Of a stretch of DNA of 64,000 bases, positions 398 through 8,641 are shown piece after piece (within the stretch, counting starts at the first letter, position 1; each line of letters starts with the position of its first letter). Both the position numbers and the translations under genes were made by a program. The notes under the pieces are model-generated. The model saw only the letters and a program-made list of their open reading frames with translations, was not told the origin of the DNA and did not search any database. This DNA is from Vasconcelosia minhoensis LEGE 07310 (GTDB lineage: Bacteria > Cyanobacteriota > Cyanobacteriia > Phormidesmidales > Phormidesmidaceae). The stretch is taken from assembly GCF_015207255.1 (NCBI RefSeq), contig NZ_JADEXG010000004.1:62001-126000 (forward strand), in the 5' to 3' direction.

Positions 398-3223
398 ATG
401 ATCAGGCTGCTGGCGGGTCACTATCAGGTTCAAAAGCCGCTGGGCAAAGGGGGGTTCGGCGAAACCTTTCTAGCCCAGGATTTGCACCTGCCGACGCAGC
501 CGCTCTGTGTGGTCAAGCAGCTGAAGCCGCAGTTTCGCGAAGCTGCGGCTCTGGTCACCGCGCGGCGGCTGTTTGACCTGGAAGCCCAAACGCTATACCA
601 GCTGGGACGCCACAACCAGATCCCGCAGTTGCTGGCCCATTTTGAAGAAAATGGTGAGTTTTATCTGGTTCAAGAATTTATCGAAGGTCCGTCGCTGCAC
701 CAGGTCCTCCAGCAGCGTCGCTATCTCGGTCAGCCCGAAGCGCAACTCCTGCTGCGCGACCTGCTGCCTGTCCTGACGTTCATCCAGCAGCAGCAGGTGA
801 TTCACCGCGACATCAAACCGGCCAACATTATTCTGCGACAGGGCGATGGTAAGCCGGTACTGATTGACTTTGGCGCGGTCAAGCAAATGAGTACCCGGCT
901 CGCCGACTCGGGGTTCACGATCAGCATCGGCTCATCGGGCTATATGCCCGCTGAGCAGCAGGCTGGGCAGCCGCGCCCCAGCAGCGACCTCTACGCCCTG
1001 GGGATGACCTGTTTGCAGGCACTGACCGGACTCACCCCGCAGAAGCTGCCGCGCGATCGCGACACTGAAGAAGTAGATCTCAGCCAGCTGCCCAACGGGC
1101 TGAGACTAGAGGAGAATCTGGCCGCAGTGCTGGCCAGAATGGTGCGCTATGACTACCGCGATCGCTACCCCGATGCAGCAGCAACGCTTCAGGCGTTGGA
1201 AATCTCGCAGGCTTCACCAATGCCAGGCCCGGACCGTCTGTCCGTCATTACCGAGAGCCAGCGGCCCGGGTCGTCTGTAACAGTAGCGCAAACGGCGCTG
1301 GGTAACTCGGCAGATCCGACGGTTCATATGACCACGGCAGCTCCAGACAGTCTCAGCAGTCGGGAGTATCGCAACCGTCAGGCCCTGCTCAACAAGGTTA
1401 GAAACTATTGGATCAGGGGCGTTTTAGAAAATTCGTTGCTTGACCAGATCCAGCTGGTGCTAGGACTAGAAGAACATCCCCAGGCGGTGAGTACGCCCTG
1501 GAATATTGAAGTTAAAATCCAGGACCAGCCTCGGACCGAGCTGCCTACTCACGCCTCGGTGCTCTCCATTTTTGACCAGATGGGAACCGGGCGGACGCTG
1601 CTGATTTTAGGCGAGCCTGGAGCGGGCAAGACGACTACGCTGTTGCAGCTGGCCCGAGAGCTGGTCAGCCGGGCCGAGCAAAACAGTTATCAGCTGCTGC
1701 CAGTGGTCTTAAATCTGTCTTCTTGGGGCAGCCACCAGCCCTACTTTGGGCAGTGGATCGTCGAGGAGCTTAATGCCAAGTATCAGGTGCCCAAGCCGGT
1801 CGGTCGCTCCTGGGTCGAGCAGCAACATCTGCTGCTCTTACTCGACGGGCTAGATGAGGTTTCGCTTGAAAACCGAGAGGCCTGTGTACTTGCGCTCAAC
1901 CAGTTTCAGCAGCAGTTTGCTACCGAGCTGGTCGTCTGCTGCCGCCGCCGCGATTACGATGGGCTGAGCCAGCGACTCCAGCTGCAAACTGCCCTGTATC
2001 TGCAAGCCCTGTCTCCCAATCAGGTCCAGACCTACCTGGAACAGCTCCAGTTCGACCTCAGCGGCTTACAGCAGTGGCTCACCGCCGACACCCCGATGCA
2101 GACATTAGCCCGATCGCCGCTGATGCTTAACATTATGGTGCTAGCCTACCGCGACCTCACCCCCAGCGGTATCCCCGCCACCCGTTCTTTGGAAGAGCAG
2201 CGGCGGCGACTGTTTGACCGCTATATTGCCCAAATGTTGGAGCGTCGGGGCCGCGATCGCTATTCCCGGCAGCAGATGCTCAACGGACTACGCTGGCTGG
2301 CGCGCCAGCTCACCCACTCAGGCCAGACGATCTTCTTAATCGAACGGCTACAGCCGCAGTGGTTGCATCGCTCCGGCGACCGTTTCCTCTACCGCGCGGT
2401 GTCCTCTCTGCTCGCAGGTCTAGGCTTCGGGCTGAGCTATGGTATCTTCAGCCAGATTGGCATCGGTATTGCTGAAGTCGGCTGGTGGGGTGACCTGCGG
2501 CCTTACTGGCTTGACAGCTTACATATGATTTTGATTTACAGCCCGCTCGTAGGGTTGGCGATTTCGCTACTGCCCGCCCAGGTCAGGCCGATCGAAACGC
2601 TGAACTGGTCCTGGCGACAGGCGCTGCCGGGAACGCTGCTCTGGCTCCTGATCGGGACCGCGATTGGGCTAGGTGGTGGGCTGATTGTTGACATCGTTGA
2701 ACCCGCTCTGATGGGAGCACCCATTCGTCATACTGGAGAGTCTTGGACTGCCTGGATCGCCGCTCACTTACTGCCCTTTGACGGGGTGAACGGCGGTATC
2801 GCCGGGACCGTTTTTGGCCTCACCAACGGGCTCAGGGGGTCAGAGGTGGAGACCAAAATTATTCCCAATCAGGCGATCTGGCGGTCGGTGAACAGTGCGG
2901 TGTATTTTGCGATCGCGGGCAGCTTCACCGGCGGGATTGCTGGTGCCCTGCTCGGCAGACCGTTCGACACCCCAATTCACATCAGCCTCATCAACGGCCT
3001 CAGCGTCGGGTTGCTGTCAGGTTTCCTCGGCGGCGGCGGCCTGGCGGCGCTGAAGCATTTTGTCCTAAGGCTGCTGCTCTACCGTCGCGGACAGATTCCC
3101 TGGAACTACAGCCGCTTTCTGGAACAGGCTACCGCCCACGCTTTTCTACAGAAGGTCGGCGGCGGTTATATCTTTATCCATCGCCTGCTGCTAGAGCATT
3201 TTGCCCAGCTGCCCAAAAGCTGA
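398..3223 (+). CDS. Membrane Ser/Thr protein kinase fused to NACHT NTPase
   Basis: A 941-residue fusion. Residues 8-270 are a Hanks-type Ser/Thr kinase: glycine loop GKGGFG (16-21), Lys40, catalytic HRDIKPAN (136-143) and DFG (157-159). After a linker, residues 324-375 match the helical segment that often precedes bacterial NACHT domains. Residues 398-560 carry a NACHT NTPase with Walker A GEPGAGKTT (about 405) and Walker B LLLLLDGLDEV (about 478). Residues 660-910 contain several Gly-rich hydrophobic segments, so the protein is probably anchored in the plasma membrane, and a conserved VGGGYIFIHRLLLEHFA tail follows. Kinase-NACHT fusions are known in cyanobacteria, and NACHT proteins include anti-phage sensors. 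Signalling or defence is inferred. The ATG at 398 is the only sensible start. Confidence 0.9.
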   Translation: MIRLLAGHYQVQKPLGKGGFGETFLAQDLHLPTQPLCVVKQLKPQFREAAALVTARRLFDLEAQTLYQLGRHNQIPQLLAHFEENGEFYLVQEFIEGPSLHQVLQQRRYLGQPEAQLLLRDLLPVLTFIQQQQVIHRDIKPANIILRQGDGKPVLIDFGAVKQMSTRLADSGFTISIGSSGYMPAEQQAGQPRPSSDLYALGMTCLQALTGLTPQKLPRDRDTEEVDLSQLPNGLRLEENLAAVLARMVRYDYRDRYPDAAATLQALEISQASPMPGPDRLSVITESQRPGSSVTVAQTALGNSADPTVHMTTAAPDSLSSREYRNRQALLNKVRNYWIRGVLENSLLDQIQLVLGLEEHPQAVSTPWNIEVKIQDQPRTELPTHASVLSIFDQMGTGRTLLILGEPGAGKTTTLLQLARELVSRAEQNSYQLLPVVLNLSSWGSHQPYFGQWIVEELNAKYQVPKPVGRSWVEQQHLLLLLDGLDEVSLENREACVLALNQFQQQFATELVVCCRRRDYDGLSQRLQLQTALYLQALSPNQVQTYLEQLQFDLSGLQQWLTADTPMQTLARSPLMLNIMVLAYRDLTPSGIPATRSLEEQRRRLFDRYIAQMLERRGRDRYSRQQMLNGLRWLARQLTHSGQTIFLIERLQPQWLHRSGDRFLYRAVSSLLAGLGFGLSYGIFSQIGIGIAEVGWWGDLRPYWLDSLHMILIYSPLVGLAISLLPAQVRPIETLNWSWRQALPGTLLWLLIGTAIGLGGGLIVDIVEPALMGAPIRHTGESWTAWIAAHLLPFDGVNGGIAGTVFGLTNGLRGSEVETKIIPNQAIWRSVNSAVYFAIAGSFTGGIAGALLGRPFDTPIHISLINGLSVGLLSGFLGGGGLAALKHFVLRLLLYRRGQIPWNYSRFLEQATAHAFLQKVGGGYIFIHRLLLEHFAQLPKS

Positions 3224-3297
3224 CTCGCTCTGATCCTAAAACCTGACGTTACGTAAGGCACAAGGGGAAATTCAGGCCGACGGAACTGACCAGATTT

Positions 3298-3459
3298 TTA
3301 CCCAGTCTTGGTGCCTGCTAGAACCAGCTGACCCAGTTCTTTGGCGAGTTCGGGCGTATCTCCAAACTGGTCAGTCAGATAGCTGCAATCGGTCTTTACG
3401 CCGGGTAATAGAGTTTGAAGATAGCGTTGCCAATATTGTTCAATTTGAAAATGGTTCAT
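3298..3459 (-). pseudogene. ASCH-domain protein remnant (N-terminal 53 residues)
   Basis: The minus strand from 3459 encodes 53 residues ending LVLAGTKTG before a TAA. The arrangement FGDTPELAKELGQLVLAGTKT closely resembles the N-terminal third of ASCH proteins, a PUA-like fold that binds RNA or modified nucleosides and usually spans about 150 residues. The rest of the domain is missing, and none of the sequence down to 3224 continues it in any frame that I could follow. I read it as a 3'-truncated relic with no expected function. It lies directly downstream of the GST gene on the same strand. Confidence 0.6.
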
Positions 3460-3484
3460 GATGACTGCACTGCGTATAAATTCA

Positions 3485-4126
3485 CTACCAACGGCGCTCT
3501 AAAATGGCTCGAATGTTGGGTAGGGCAGCCGCGATCGCGTCAGGCGTATAGGCCGTTTGCTGCCAGCTCTGCCGCTGAGCCAGCCGCGCTGACCAGGCCC
3601 TCAGGCGGGGATAGCTATCCAGGGGCAGAGACGGCACCAGCGTCCCCGCGACAATATCGGCTAGCGTGAAGGCTTCTCCGGCAAAGTAAGGGCGCTGGTC
3701 GAGCAGCTTTTCCAAAAATTGCAGGATAACGGTCACTCGCTGCTGAGCCGCTTCAAGCTTCTGAGGAGCAACCTCTAGTCCGACCATGGGTCGAGTGAGG
3801 GGAATCGTCTCCGGTTGTAGCTCTACTACGGTGATGGTTTCAACCATCCGCACCCTAGCCACAGCGCCAGGGTCGCTCGGCATCAGGGAGGGCGTCGGAT
3901 ACATAGCTTCTAGATAGTCCAAAATGGCCAATGACTCCACCACCTGCAACCCGTCATCGACAATGGCGGGAACCCGCTGGAGCGGATTGATCGCAGCAAA
4001 TTCATCGCTGAACTGGTCCCCATCTAAGTTGACTAAAATAGATTCGAAGGGAATTTGCTTTTCCAGCAAGGTAATCCAGACTCGACGAGCATTGACAGAA
4101 ATAGGATTGTAGTAAAACTTCAGCAT
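3485..4126 (-). CDS. Glutathione S-transferase family protein
   Basis: A 213-residue cytosolic GST. The N-terminal thioredoxin fold starts MLKFYYNPISVNARRVW, with Ser10 as a plausible glutathione-activating residue. The cis-proline motif RVPAIV (51-56) and the glutathione-binding ES pair (64-65) are present. The C-terminal half is the all-helical domain, with FTLADIVAG as the N-capping/hydrophobic-staple region. The family conjugates glutathione to electrophiles or reduces peroxides; the substrate here is unknown. It is the first gene of a minus-strand stretch rich in broken genes, but this one looks complete. The ATG at 4126 gives the canonical GST start. Confidence 0.9.
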   Translation of the reverse strand: MLKFYYNPISVNARRVWITLLEKQIPFESILVNLDGDQFSDEFAAINPLQRVPAIVDDGLQVVESLAILDYLEAMYPTPSLMPSDPGAVARVRMVETITVVELQPETIPLTRPMVGLEVAPQKLEAAQQRVTVILQFLEKLLDQRPYFAGEAFTLADIVAGTLVPSLPLDSYPRLRAWSARLAQRQSWQQTAYTPDAIAAALPNIRAILERRW

Positions 4127-4158
4127 ATTGACTCCGATTAGATCGTTATCCTTTGATC

Positions 4159-4653
4159 TCAGTAGCAGAACTTCTCACATCGCGCCTTCAGGGCTTGGTC
4201 AAAGTCGAGATAGCCCTGTCGGCTGACGCAGTAGATGCCGCGCCAGGCCAGAAAAGGAATGAGTAGGCCAGAATTTTCGTGGATCTGGCTAAATCGACTG
4301 TGCCGATCGTCAATTGCTTCAAATTTGAACGTATGGCGAACGGTGAACAGAATGGGGGCGGCAAAATGGCCCTGCCAGACGAAGCATCGGGGTGACTCAA
4401 TCTCTAGAAATTGAGCCGTAATCCAATGCTGGCCAAACTGACTCAGGTCTTCTAAAAATTGAATCGATTTTCCAACCGCGAACTGGGCGTGCGCTTCCAG
4501 CACAAACGGATTCCACTCTGGGTAGGCTTCAAAGTCAGTCACCTGCTCCCAGACGACCTGACGCGGGGCCTGAATCACGACTGCCGTTGTCCAGCCGTTT
4601 ATCAGTGCCATGCGCTGTTGCAGACTGGGACGAGTTGAGACATGAAGAGTCAT
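4159..4653 (-). CDS. SRPBCC (START-like/polyketide cyclase) family protein
   Basis: 164 residues. The core VVIQAPRQVVWEQVTDFEAYPEWNPFV is the classic opening of SRPBCC proteins, a helix-grip fold with a hydrophobic ligand pocket. The later strand FTVRHTFKFEAI and the closing helix around FDQALKARCEKF fit the same fold. The ligand is unknown. The ORF start at 4653 overlaps the end of the upstream GNAT frame by 4 bp, so the two were probably co-transcribed and translationally coupled. An internal start near MALINGW is also possible. Confidence 0.8.
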   Translation of the reverse strand: MTLHVSTRPSLQQRMALINGWTTAVVIQAPRQVVWEQVTDFEAYPEWNPFVLEAHAQFAVGKSIQFLEDLSQFGQHWITAQFLEIESPRCFVWQGHFAAPILFTVRHTFKFEAIDDRHSRFSQIHENSGLLIPFLAWRGIYCVSRQGYLDFDQALKARCEKFCY

Positions 4654-5221
4654 GGTTCTTTCCTAAACTGGATTGATTGAGCAACAGGAAGCGTACGGCG
4701 AAAAACATATACCTCGTGGGTTTTGTTGCCATAAGGACGTGGTGGCGTCTTGCGGATAACCTCGAAGCCCATGCGCTGCCAGAACTGTCTGCCTGGCGCG
4801 TTGGCCGCGATCGCGCATAGCGAAACAGACCTCCCCCCCTGTCCCACAAGCCACCGTTCGAACGTGCGATAGAAGTCAGCGCCCAATCCTTGCCCCCGCT
4901 GCTCGGGTGCCAGCAGCATCAGCCCAATCCACCAGGTTTGGTCGTCAGGATAGTGCTGCACGGCCACAATCGCGCCGACCAAGCGATCGCCATGTCAAAC
5001 AGCCCTACGACCTGAATATCCTCGACAGCCTTGCCGTCGGGCAATTCCTCAAACTCTGCCTGAGCGGCTGTCGGGACGGCAGGAACACCGTTGGTCATGA
5101 CAAAAAAGTCAGCGCATTGCTCGAAGAGACCCTGGAGGACTCCGGCTGCTTGAGGGGTGAGCTGGCTGACGGCATAGTCACGGCGCTCTGATACCAGCCT
5201 GAATGACGATAAAGCAGTCAT
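4650..5221 (-). pseudogene. GNAT N-acetyltransferase split by a frameshift
   Basis: Two adjacent minus-strand frames together make one GNAT acetyltransferase. The first, starting ATG at 5221 (MTALSSFRLVSERRDYAV), runs to VVGLFD and then goes off-family. The second supplies RLVGAIVAVQHYPDDQTWWIGLMLLAPEQRGQGLG, which contains the acetyl-CoA-binding Q/RxxGxG motif, and continues to FWQRMGFEVIRK. The join is at about 4991-4996, immediately beside a HIP1 octamer at 4983-4990, and needs a one-base correction. The CoA-binding half could only be made from an internal start (ORF 4650-4982). Either the gene is broken or there is a sequencing error. A GAGGTC ribosome site precedes the 5221 start. Confidence 0.75.
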
Positions 5222-5247
5222 GTTGACCTCACATTGATTTGATTTCA

Positions 5248-5631
5248 TCAGTTGCCCACCCGATACTGCAAACGAACGACTCCCCCAGCGTAGGTTTTGC
5301 TGTTTGTCAGCTCTAGCGGCGTTTGGGGGATCGTCTGAGCAAACAGTGGAATCCCTGTCCCCATCAAAAATGGATTGACTTTGACAATCAGCCGGTCAAT
5401 CAGGCGGGCGGCAAACAGCGCTGCCGCCAAATTGGCTCCCCCGCAAAGCCAAATACCTTTGCCGTTTTCTGCCTTCAGGCTGCTGACCTGAGCAATCGCA
5501 TGATCAGACACCAGGATGACAGCCTGATCTAGGCTCGCTGGCAGACTACGGGAAAAAAGATACTGCCTCAAATGGGCGTAGGGACTCGTTACCCCTGGGT
5601 AAGCGCGATCGCGCCCTGGAGCTGAGCCCAC
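5248..5631 (-). pseudogene. DHFR/RibD-C family reductase lacking its N-terminus
   Basis: From about YLFSRSLP onward this frame matches the C-terminal two thirds of the dihydrofolate reductase-like (RibD C-terminal) family: IWLCGGANLAAALFAARLIDRLIVKVNPFLMGTGIPLF is the NADPH-binding GGxxL segment and following strand. The expected N-terminal part (about 60-70 residues, IAxSLDGYIA type) is absent. The first residues of the frame, MGSAPGRDRAYPGV, are the out-of-frame reading of the neighbouring acyl-CoA dehydrogenase end. I therefore read the gene as beheaded by a deletion. If translated at all, the product should not bind its substrates normally. Confidence 0.75.
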
Positions 5632-6500
5632 AGTTCACCATAGCGCCGTAGCAGATAGGGATCCTCCGCTGCCGTTTCTACCGCTGCCGTTTCCCAGGGA
5701 CGAGCCTGGGTGCGAGTATAGGCCTGAGCCGCCGCCAGGGCACCCTCAGCAATGCCTTGGAAAATAGCGGACTGCACCAGCATGCCACCAATTCCCAGCC
5801 CGGTCGGGAAGGCGCTTTCCAGGTTTGGCGGCGGCCCCAGCAGTTCGGCTGGCTCAACCCGCACTGATTCAAAGGTAAAGCTGCCGCTGGCGGTGCGGCG
5901 CTGTCCCAGGGTATCCCAGTCGTGGTTATAGGTCAGGCCGGGTCGGTCGCTTGGGAGCACAAACATGACTGGCAGCGGATTTCCCGGCTGGGTCGCAGCG
6001 CAGATCATCCGATCGGCCACCACGGCCCCAGTACAGAAGGTTTTTACGCCGCTGGCCCGAAAGCCATCGCCGTCGGCCTCCAACGTCAGCCGCAGGTCGC
6101 GGGTGTTGATGGCGTTAGCCCAAAAGTGATTGTGCTGGGCTGTGTCGCGATAGTAGCGAACGGTTTGCTCAGCGGTGCCGATCAAATGGGGCACGACAGA
6201 GAGCAGCAGATGATAGCCGTAGAGCTGGGCCGCAGAGCTATCGGTTTTAGCCAGGGCTTTGACGATATCCATCGCCTCTGACCAGCTAGCGCCGGTGCCG
6301 CCGTAGGCTTTGGGCACCACCAGCGGCAGCAGTCCGGCAGCTCGAAGACACCGCACTTCTGGACTGGGGCTGCCCGCGATCGCGTCTCGCTCCTGTACGG
6401 TATGGCGAAGCTCGTTTGCAACTTCAGCAGCGGTGACCGCGTAATCTCTATTTCGAAAATAATCGCCTGTAATTTTAGAGGGGTTTAAAGCAATCGTCAT
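5589..6500 (-). pseudogene. Acyl-CoA dehydrogenase-like flavoprotein, C-terminally truncated
   Basis: 303 residues resembling the acyl-CoA dehydrogenase/SfnB-DszC type flavin monooxygenases, which are normally about 390-400 residues. Present are the N-terminal helical domain with VPKAYGGTGASWSEA and the middle beta domain (VKTFCTGAVVADRMICAA). The C-terminal helical domain breaks off after DPYLLRRYGELWAQLQGAIALTQG. The last in-family residues coincide with a HIP1 octamer at 5606-5613, after which the sequence becomes the DHFR-like gene in another frame. The missing C-terminal helices form the flavin site and tetramer core, so activity is doubtful. The start at ATG 6500 looks normal. Confidence 0.75.
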
Positions 6501-6528
6501 AATCTCTTTGTTCCTTTAGGATATTTGG

Positions 6529-6741
6529 CTAACTAAAATCGGCAGCAGCGTAGTAGCGCTGCTCCAGCCAAGCGCGCAGACCTGCTTCGGAGACACCTCG
6601 GATGCGCTGCTGGGTTACCGGGTCGTAGGCATCAAACAGGGTTTGGCCGTCTTGGGAAGAGCGGGCTTGGATTCTGGGATCCTGGCAAGTTGTCAATGCC
6701 TGAACCCATTGATTCAGCAAGAAGCGAAACCCTCTAGCCAA
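6529..6741 (-). CDS. Small cyanobacterial hypothetical protein (possibly partial)
   Basis: About 70 residues with a TTG start at 6741. The C-terminal half has the pattern DPRIQAR...DGQTLFDAYDPVTQQ followed by SEAGLRAWLEQRYY, which resembles short uncharacterised cyanobacterial proteins with a conserved YDP and WLE(Q/K)RY. I do not recognise a function. No good ribosome-binding site precedes the TTG, and the sequence just upstream belongs to a DUF2281-like remnant in another frame, so the true N-terminus may have been lost. Confidence 0.5.
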   Translation of the reverse strand: MARGFRFLLNQWVQALTTCQDPRIQARSSQDGQTLFDAYDPVTQQRIRGVSEAGLRAWLEQRYYAAADFS

Positions 6742-6815
6742 CCTGTTCTGACCTGAGCCTTGATACTGCTGGGAGGCAACAGCTCAAGGGTTTCATATAG
6801 GGTTTTGGTGTTCAT
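6714..6815 (-). pseudogene. DUF2281-type antitoxin remnant
   Basis: An ATG at 6815 opens MNTKTLYETLELLPPSSIKAQV, which looks like the N-terminus of DUF2281 proteins (VapB-like antitoxins with a helical LPPSLQxQVLxF segment). Where the family would continue with DFVEFL, the frame becomes RTGWLEGFASC and stops at 6714. It overlaps the start of the 6529-6741 frame. I see this as a truncated antitoxin relic; no partner toxin is nearby. Confidence 0.5.
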
Positions 6816-7040
6816 CGTTCTAATTTTGATGACTTATGCTTTGTAAGTTAGTCAGCAATCGAGAATTAGTCGGGAATAGACGAGCGCTGATGGCGCGATT
6901 CTGCATCGGGATGGGCTGAAACGGCCTCTGAAATGTCTAAGCTGCTATGCCTGAGATGCGTCAGCGTACGATTAGCGGCTGGAGCATCTATGCTGGAGAC
7001 AGCTGTTTTTTGGCCCGCTTTTTAGAGGCCGCTGAATTTC

Positions 7041-7382
7041 ATGGCTGACTGCCCTCGCTGCCACCACACCATTTCTAGCTCTACCGTTCGCTGTCCTCAG
7101 TGCGGTTTAGAGCTCAAGGCCCACGGACATCCCGGCATCACGCTCTATCGGGCAGAGGGAGATACGGCGCTGTGCGATTGCTGTGTCTACGACGCCGACG
7201 ACAGCTGCACCTTTCCCCAGCGGCCCCATGCTCAGACCTGCACCCTATTTCAAGATATTGCGGTGGCAAACGCGCCGGTCCCGACCGATGAGGTCTACCG
7301 GATTCCCTGGTGGCGCAAGCATCGGGGCTGGGTAGCGCTAGCCGTTTTGCTGGGGATTAGCCTGATTATTGCGCTGCTGTAG
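7041..7382 (+). CDS. Zinc-ribbon membrane protein
   Basis: 113 residues. The N-terminus has two CxxC pairs (CPRC at 4-7 and CPQC at 18-21) forming a zinc ribbon. A second cysteine cluster follows (CDCC, DSCTFPQRPHAQTCTLF), a motif seen in conserved cyanobacterial zinc-ribbon proteins. The C-terminus has one hydrophobic segment (WVALAVLLGISLIIALL), so the protein is probably tail-anchored with the cysteine domains in the cytosol. The role is unknown; metal binding is inferred from the cysteines only. The ATG at 7041 places the first CxxC at residue 4, as usual for this type. Confidence 0.75.
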   Translation: MADCPRCHHTISSSTVRCPQCGLELKAHGHPGITLYRAEGDTALCDCCVYDADDSCTFPQRPHAQTCTLFQDIAVANAPVPTDEVYRIPWWRKHRGWVALAVLLGISLIIALL

Positions 7383-7585
7383 ACACAGCTGGGTGAATTA
7401 GGGTTTTCGGCGAGGGTGACTTTCATTACGGCGACCTCCATCACTATTGAGGGATGTATGAAAAACCTGACTAAGCTTATATCTGTATCTTAGGATCTTA
7501 GGGTTTCTTTCAGGCGGTTCAGAATAGGCCAGCCTGCTCACAGCCCAAACCTTGAAAATTTAGATTGATTTGAGCATTCAAATTT

Positions 7586-8641
7586 ATGAAAAAGCGACTT
7601 ACGTTTCTCGGTACTGCCAGCCTGCTTGCGCTGGTGGGTTTGACGGCCCGACCGGCAATTGCTCAGCGGGTGGTCGAAGTGACGCCCAGCGTTAGCGCAG
7701 AGAGCGCTTCAGCTGATTCGCTGATCTCTGGCCTGTTTGAAACCAGTAACGGCAGCCAGGTCGATGTCAGCTCGGTCGAAATCTTTGTCGATGGGCAGGA
7801 TGTCACCGCCGAGAGTTCAATTACGGCCAACTTCTTTAGCTATCGCCCGACCCAGCCGCTGCGACCGGGGCAGCATCAGGTGCAGGTGGAGTACAGCAAT
7901 ACCCAGGGCCAGCGCCGCGTTGCTAGCTGGGACTTCACGATCGCGGCCCCCGAGCCCGAAGTCGCCATCAGCTCAGTCACCCACAACGCTACCGAGCCGC
8001 TAGCTCAGAACGCGACGCTGCTGACGACGATTAACGGCACCCCCGGCGCTCAGGCTTGGGTTTTGCTGATTGAAAACGGTCAGCGCCTCCGCGAACTCCC
8101 CGCCGAAGAGGTTTCGCCAGGGGTCTACGTGGCGACCTATTCGCTTCAGGGTCAGAGCGCGGTAGGTGAAGCGATCGCGGTGGGTCAGCTGCAGCAGGGG
8201 GAGGCCCGAATCCTGGCTGCCGCGCCGCAGCCGGTGCGAATCAGCGCCACCGCCGCATCAACCGACGCCGTCCAGACGGAGGACCTAGACGCGACGGCGG
8301 CGGATACCAACTCAGCCGGGGGCCTGAAGCCGCAGTTTACCAGCCACAGCAGCGGCGATCGAATTAGCGATCGCGGCTTTACGCTAGTCGGACAAACTCT
8401 GCCTAATGCCCAAGTTGAAATTAAGGTGACCGCCAGCACCTCGGTGCTCGGCGGTGTCGTCAACGTGGGTTCCACCCGGCTGGTGGAGGAAACCGTTACG
8501 GCGGATGGCAACGGTGAATTTCGAGTAGAGGTGCCATCACCGCTAGTCATCGGGTCGGGAACGCGATACCAGGCCGAGGCCCTGGCCCGGCTCGGCGATC
8601 AGACCAGCTCAATCACGCAGCTGATGCTAGAGCAGGAGTAG
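7586..8641 (+). CDS. Secreted protein with beta-sandwich repeats
   Basis: 351 residues. A clear signal peptide (MKKRLTFLGTASLLALVGLTARPAIA, cleavage near residue 26) directs export. The mature part is rich in short strands. Residues 28-120 read like an Ig-like domain (LRPGQHQVQVEYSNTQGQRRVASWDFTI, similar to cell-wall-anchored Big-type modules). A second domain covers about 128-215. A third, Gly/Thr-rich one, follows a spacer at about 245-350. No C-terminal anchor or sorting signal is visible, so it is probably periplasmic or extracellular. Function unknown. A strong hairpin terminator follows at 8691. Confidence 0.7.
   Translation: MKKRLTFLGTASLLALVGLTARPAIAQRVVEVTPSVSAESASADSLISGLFETSNGSQVDVSSVEIFVDGQDVTAESSITANFFSYRPTQPLRPGQHQVQVEYSNTQGQRRVASWDFTIAAPEPEVAISSVTHNATEPLAQNATLLTTINGTPGAQAWVLLIENGQRLRELPAEEVSPGVYVATYSLQGQSAVGEAIAVGQLQQGEARILAAAPQPVRISATAASTDAVQTEDLDATAADTNSAGGLKPQFTSHSSGDRISDRGFTLVGQTLPNAQVEIKVTASTSVLGGVVNVGSTRLVEETVTADGNGEFRVEVPSPLVIGSGTRYQAEALARLGDQTSSITQLMLEQE

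Follow-up and report, generated by a model that had tools for sequence, protein, structure and literature searches.

The octamer HIP1 originally came to notice in smtB and was proposed as a promoter of rearrangements, according to the part of PMC6331805 drawn on here, which also cites Gupta et al. (1993) for a deletion linked to HIP1 in Synechococcus PCC 6301, in the metallothionein locus. The part of PMC4390886 used here cites both site-specific and low-efficiency illegitimate recombination linked to HIP1, and describes in Calothrix PCC 7103 a deletion that took the last 40% of a methyltransferase gene together with the first 40% of the adjacent gene. The text of PMC5101192 drawn on added nothing on deletions.

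The locus analyzed here lies in a stretch of 64,000 nucleotides from Vasconcelosia minhoensis LEGE 07310 (hereafter the window; all coordinates refer to it), where a truncated gene of the acyl-CoA dehydrogenase (ACAD) superfamily meets a truncated gene of the RibD_C/dihydrofolate-reductase-like family (hereafter DHFR) close to a HIP1 octamer. As far as the excerpted account of the Calothrix deletion goes, the two cases are alike in having one joint, at which one gene lost its end and a second gene its start, but they differ in the genes affected, and the ancestral order of the present locus was not seen. The deletion cited for the metallothionein locus is likewise comparable in that a probable deletion joint lies near HIP1 in a HIP1-rich genome; the published case differs from the present locus, where the joint is 7-10 bases off the octamer and the partner side is without HIP1 in relatives.

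Two truncated genes and the position of their joint

The ORF at 5589-6500 (minus strand) was identified as a truncated, DszC/SfnB-like ACAD gene from Pfam, NCBIfam and complete relatives. Its best NCBIfam models were DszC (1.5e-62) and SfnB (2.1e-51), the scores for both being under the curated cut-offs in this ORF and equally so in the complete relatives L104 and L087. The ORF resembles the superfamily in having the N-terminal and middle domains (Acyl-CoA_dh_N and Acyl-CoA_dh_M, Pfam) but differs in its C-terminal domain (PF08028/PF00441), which was not found by Pfam, leaving it short of the full-length domain set of a working DszC/SfnB-like enzyme; PF08028 was present in both complete relatives scanned (L104 and L087). 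Approximately 102 C-terminal residues are missing from the ORF. The relatives continue for about 101-107 codons past the end of the window match, and the matches of all 39 relatives in an earlier alignment set reach residue 414-417 of 417.

The truncated DHFR gene occupies 5248-5631 on the same (minus) strand. Its likeness to the family is confined to the C-terminal part of the RibD_C profile (PF01872), with a Pfam match limited to profile positions 122-196 of 197, and it differs from the family in having no N-terminal part; in complete relatives the match begins at profile position 3. The full-length domain of a working RibD_C/DHFR-like reductase is thus not present in this ORF, from which about 77 N-terminal residues are missing (the DHFR relative L046 has 77 codons ahead of the break). 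Bases 5631-5599 of the ORF are ACAD-derived, and the homology to DHFR starts at ORF residue 12-13. Very probably, neither truncated product would be a working enzyme, a view that leans on the role of the C-terminal helices in ACAD enzymes.

The joint between the two sequences was placed at 5594-5598 by a site-by-site, site-independent comparison with 40 ACAD and 36 DHFR relatives, in which a break between 5598 and 5594 received 98% of the weight, while positions at or before HIP1 received none to four decimals; the model is a rough one, because the relatives are not independent. The comparison was based on loci L023-L160 minus the genome's own loci L044, L148 and L154, skipping hits that did not span the site, and the 40 ACAD relatives include genes that are not unbroken (e.g. 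L038, with internal stops). A model of in-register exchange followed by the loss of one base placed the joint identically but fitted slightly worse (log-likelihood -52.9 vs. -51.7). When 59 genomes, its own included, were searched at the DNA level (23 of them with any match, and none of the others from the same genus), three DHFR-side alignments stopped at 5595-5596 and two ACAD-side alignments began at 5611; among the matches listed, none crossed the joint save that of the genome itself. Pfam, the relatives, the alignment ends and the break comparison therefore bear out what had been read from the letters alone, namely that the ACAD-like frame loses its C-terminus and the DHFR-like frame its N-terminus at the same place. 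A search for direct and inverted repeats in 3200-8000 returned, at the joint, only pairs sharing HIP1 itself.

A fusion enzyme was considered and rejected: the reading frame changes across the joint, and that of ACAD reaches a stop at 5589, therefore no fusion protein is encoded.

The HIP1 octamer beside the joint

The sequence-only reading had located a HIP1 octamer at 5606-5613. The octamer does lie close to the joint, but its coordinates are 5605-5612, one base away from those given. It falls within the ACAD part, in the codons of A-I-A, and ACAD sequence runs 7-10 bases beyond it, hence the joint is not at HIP1 itself. The window holds 71 copies of HIP1 (2.4 expected), approximately one every 900 bases, and 2.7% of its positions lie within 8 bases of a copy and 3.1% within 10. 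With about 3% of positions this close to a HIP1, the proximity to the joint, which was spotted post hoc, is a mild coincidence, and one octamer near a joint is weak evidence.

Of the 40 ACAD relatives, 15 have HIP1 at the same codons (14/39 in the earlier alignment set, to which L159 was added). In the complete ACAD gene of Filamentous cyanobacterium CCP2 (G207), the octamer and the bases following it occur at the same place, and the similarity extends past HIP1 to the joint; the record of this gene and that of L155 have the same length (7,279 bases) and the same match coordinates. Judging from these alignments, the octamer at 5605-5612 is most likely older than the joint and part of the inherited ACAD coding sequence, and most likely a bystander.

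On the DHFR side, exact HIP1 was absent between -80 and +100 of the break in all 38 rows of relatives (loci from L023 up, leaving out L044 and the second piece of L125; among these rows, the decayed L124 accounts for two and a piece of the interrupted L125 for one), and it was also absent within about 25 bases of the break in the 36 distinct DHFR sequences. An in-frame HIP1 would there swap for Ala a Gly that is kept in 35 of 36 DHFR relatives. Two near-matches were aligned to the site of the ACAD octamer, GCGATCGG in L124 (7/8 of HIP1) and GAGATCGG in L117, and because of these the lost DHFR ancestor may have carried a partial match to HIP1.

Origin of the joint

Our preferred reading, to which we assign a probability of about 0.8, is that one illegitimate deletion joined the front part of the ACAD gene, out of frame, to the back of a DHFR gene downstream on the same strand, HIP1 being a likely bystander. 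The ancestor would have carried the ACAD gene followed by the DHFR-like gene in the same orientation, and one event, proceeding with little or no homology, would have joined the front of the former to the back of the latter. Such a deletion would have taken out no less than about 540 bases (102 + 77 codons), together with anything between the genes. When complete relatives were used as queries, neither the lost C-terminus of ACAD (best E 0.24) nor the lost N-terminus of DHFR (best E 0.23) was found in the genome itself. One deletion had been proposed from the sequence as the simplest reading, and it is still the best one, though the ancestral order is unseen: among the matches listed for 388 genomes of the class, no genome had a complete ACAD gene followed by a complete DHFR gene, and the complete genes occur separately in many genomes. 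The same matches contained no second genome with the joint of the window (a more diverged copy could fall under the cut-offs, and the listed matches were opened in part), so that the recurrence of this junction across a wide phylogeny, named beforehand as a result that would speak against the reading, was not observed.

By comparison of the remnants with their relatives, the event looks recent, since both remnants are still open and are no more deviant at conserved positions than the relatives. Changes were counted at 19 of 132 conserved columns in the ACAD remnant, vs. 3/116, 4/117, 14/127 and 27/140 in four relatives (the counts of two of them being lowered by their closeness to one another), and at 3 of 50 in the DHFR remnant, vs. 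0-3 of 47-50 in eleven relatives.

Recombination between a HIP1 copy in the ACAD gene and another in the DHFR gene was the mechanism that the sequence-only reading had suggested, together with the expectation that HIP1 would flank the missing segment in relatives with full genes. It would agree with the closeness of the octamer to the joint, with the precedents for HIP1-linked deletion or excision in the parts of PMC6331805 and PMC4390886 drawn on, and with the near-matches of L124 and L117. The flanking sites were, however, found on the ACAD side (15/40) and in none of the 38 rows on the DHFR side, where the ancestral breakpoint was thus without HIP1 as far as relatives can show. Given also that ACAD sequence continues beyond the octamer, which is inherited, that the 36 DHFR sequences have no exact copy near the break and that an in-frame copy would replace a conserved Gly, the suggestion is left unsupported and we consider such an exchange highly unlikely. 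An apparent case of HIP1-driven recombination is in this way removed, and the same approach, in which both sides are compared with complete homologues, is usable for any proposed HIP1 joint. HIP1 might instead have acted as a weak spot rather than as homology, through breakage or stalling at the octamer or close to it, the trimming of several bases and end-joining to the DHFR gene. There is little chance that this is what happened, but if it did, the joint 7-10 bases away and the frameshift beside another HIP1 (4983-4990) in a neighbouring gene would both be scars of HIP1-linked breakage.

The joint could also derive from an ancestor with the opposite order, since a DHFR-then-ACAD arrangement, if tandemly duplicated or excised as a circle, yields exactly a joint of ACAD front and DHFR back, the outer copies being lost later. 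This order does exist: in G207, DHFR precedes ACAD on the same strand, with 443 bases between the listed ORFs, the reverse of the order in the window, and in Leptolyngbya sp. Heron Island J (G015:C16) a DHFR fragment likewise lies approximately 5 kb upstream of the ACAD gene. The pair in G207 is, however, the only complete adjacent one among the matches listed for the 388 genomes, none of the other genomes in its family (36 genomes) lists ACAD and DHFR together, and, because the search of the genome itself did not recover the outer halves, this route requires a second event of loss. We therefore hold it to be unlikely, and a deletion from an ACAD-then-DHFR ancestor to be the simplest of the two. 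A different kind of explanation is that two complete genes were joined by the assembler, or that the sequence is in error. The source assembly is indeed a draft (5.26 Mb in 161 contigs), and two further genes near the joint are frameshifted, as poor sequence could also cause. Against this, the listed completeness is 100 and the contamination 0.71, the joint lies in the middle of a contig of 128,420 bases, ORFs of 100 aa or longer occupy 85% of the window, and no other split pair like that of the GNAT gene described below was seen by eye in the list of these ORFs. Since the genome itself yielded neither of the lost halves, it is improbable that two complete genes form a chimera here, and we give artefacts of this kind only a slim chance next to the single deletion.

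Neighbouring genes and related copies

Two genes near the joint are broken as well. A GNAT acetyltransferase gene (4650-5248, minus strand; identified from its ORFs, Pfam and an unbroken relative, L093:8910-9452) is broken into two frames next to the HIP1 copy of 4983-4990, and the unbroken relative has HIP1 at the same place. On the other side, a small gene (6529-6815, minus strand) has its start and the rest in different frames, as seen by comparison with a paralogue in the same genome (L148); further relatives of this gene are L149-L153, and its ORF at 6529-6741 had no Pfam match. The frameshifts in these two genes suggest that the stretch containing them and the joint is a decaying cluster. 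Beyond it lie polyketide-cyclase-like and GST genes that appear complete. The joint is ordinary gene decay.

Several observations were made on the relatives of both truncated genes. Four close ACAD relatives (L087:6479-8906, L088:6871-9257, L089:6054-8765 and L104:1562-4211) adjoin a methyltransferase-like gene of approximately 360-380 aa, named by eye; among the listed ORFs of the locus, no methyltransferase-like ORF of that size flanks the ACAD gene of the window. In plasmid records, no DHFR match was found at E 1e-20, and distant ACAD relatives were found in 79 records, every one of them at <60% identity. Decayed copies of the DHFR family comprise, in addition to the window gene, L124, L056 (with one stop), L125 and a fragment in L087. 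The copy in L124 (3778-4351; G204:C57) carries a frameshift as well as an in-frame stop at codons 79-80, approximately the same codons as the break in the window. In L125 (3590-4336; G287:C3), an insert of approximately 170 bases, with a repeated ATCAATAACC on both sides, breaks up a second DHFR copy at codons 79-81; the insert has short inverted ends by eye (MITE-like), and one more partial copy of it occurs in the same genome, with 86% identity over positions 52-172.
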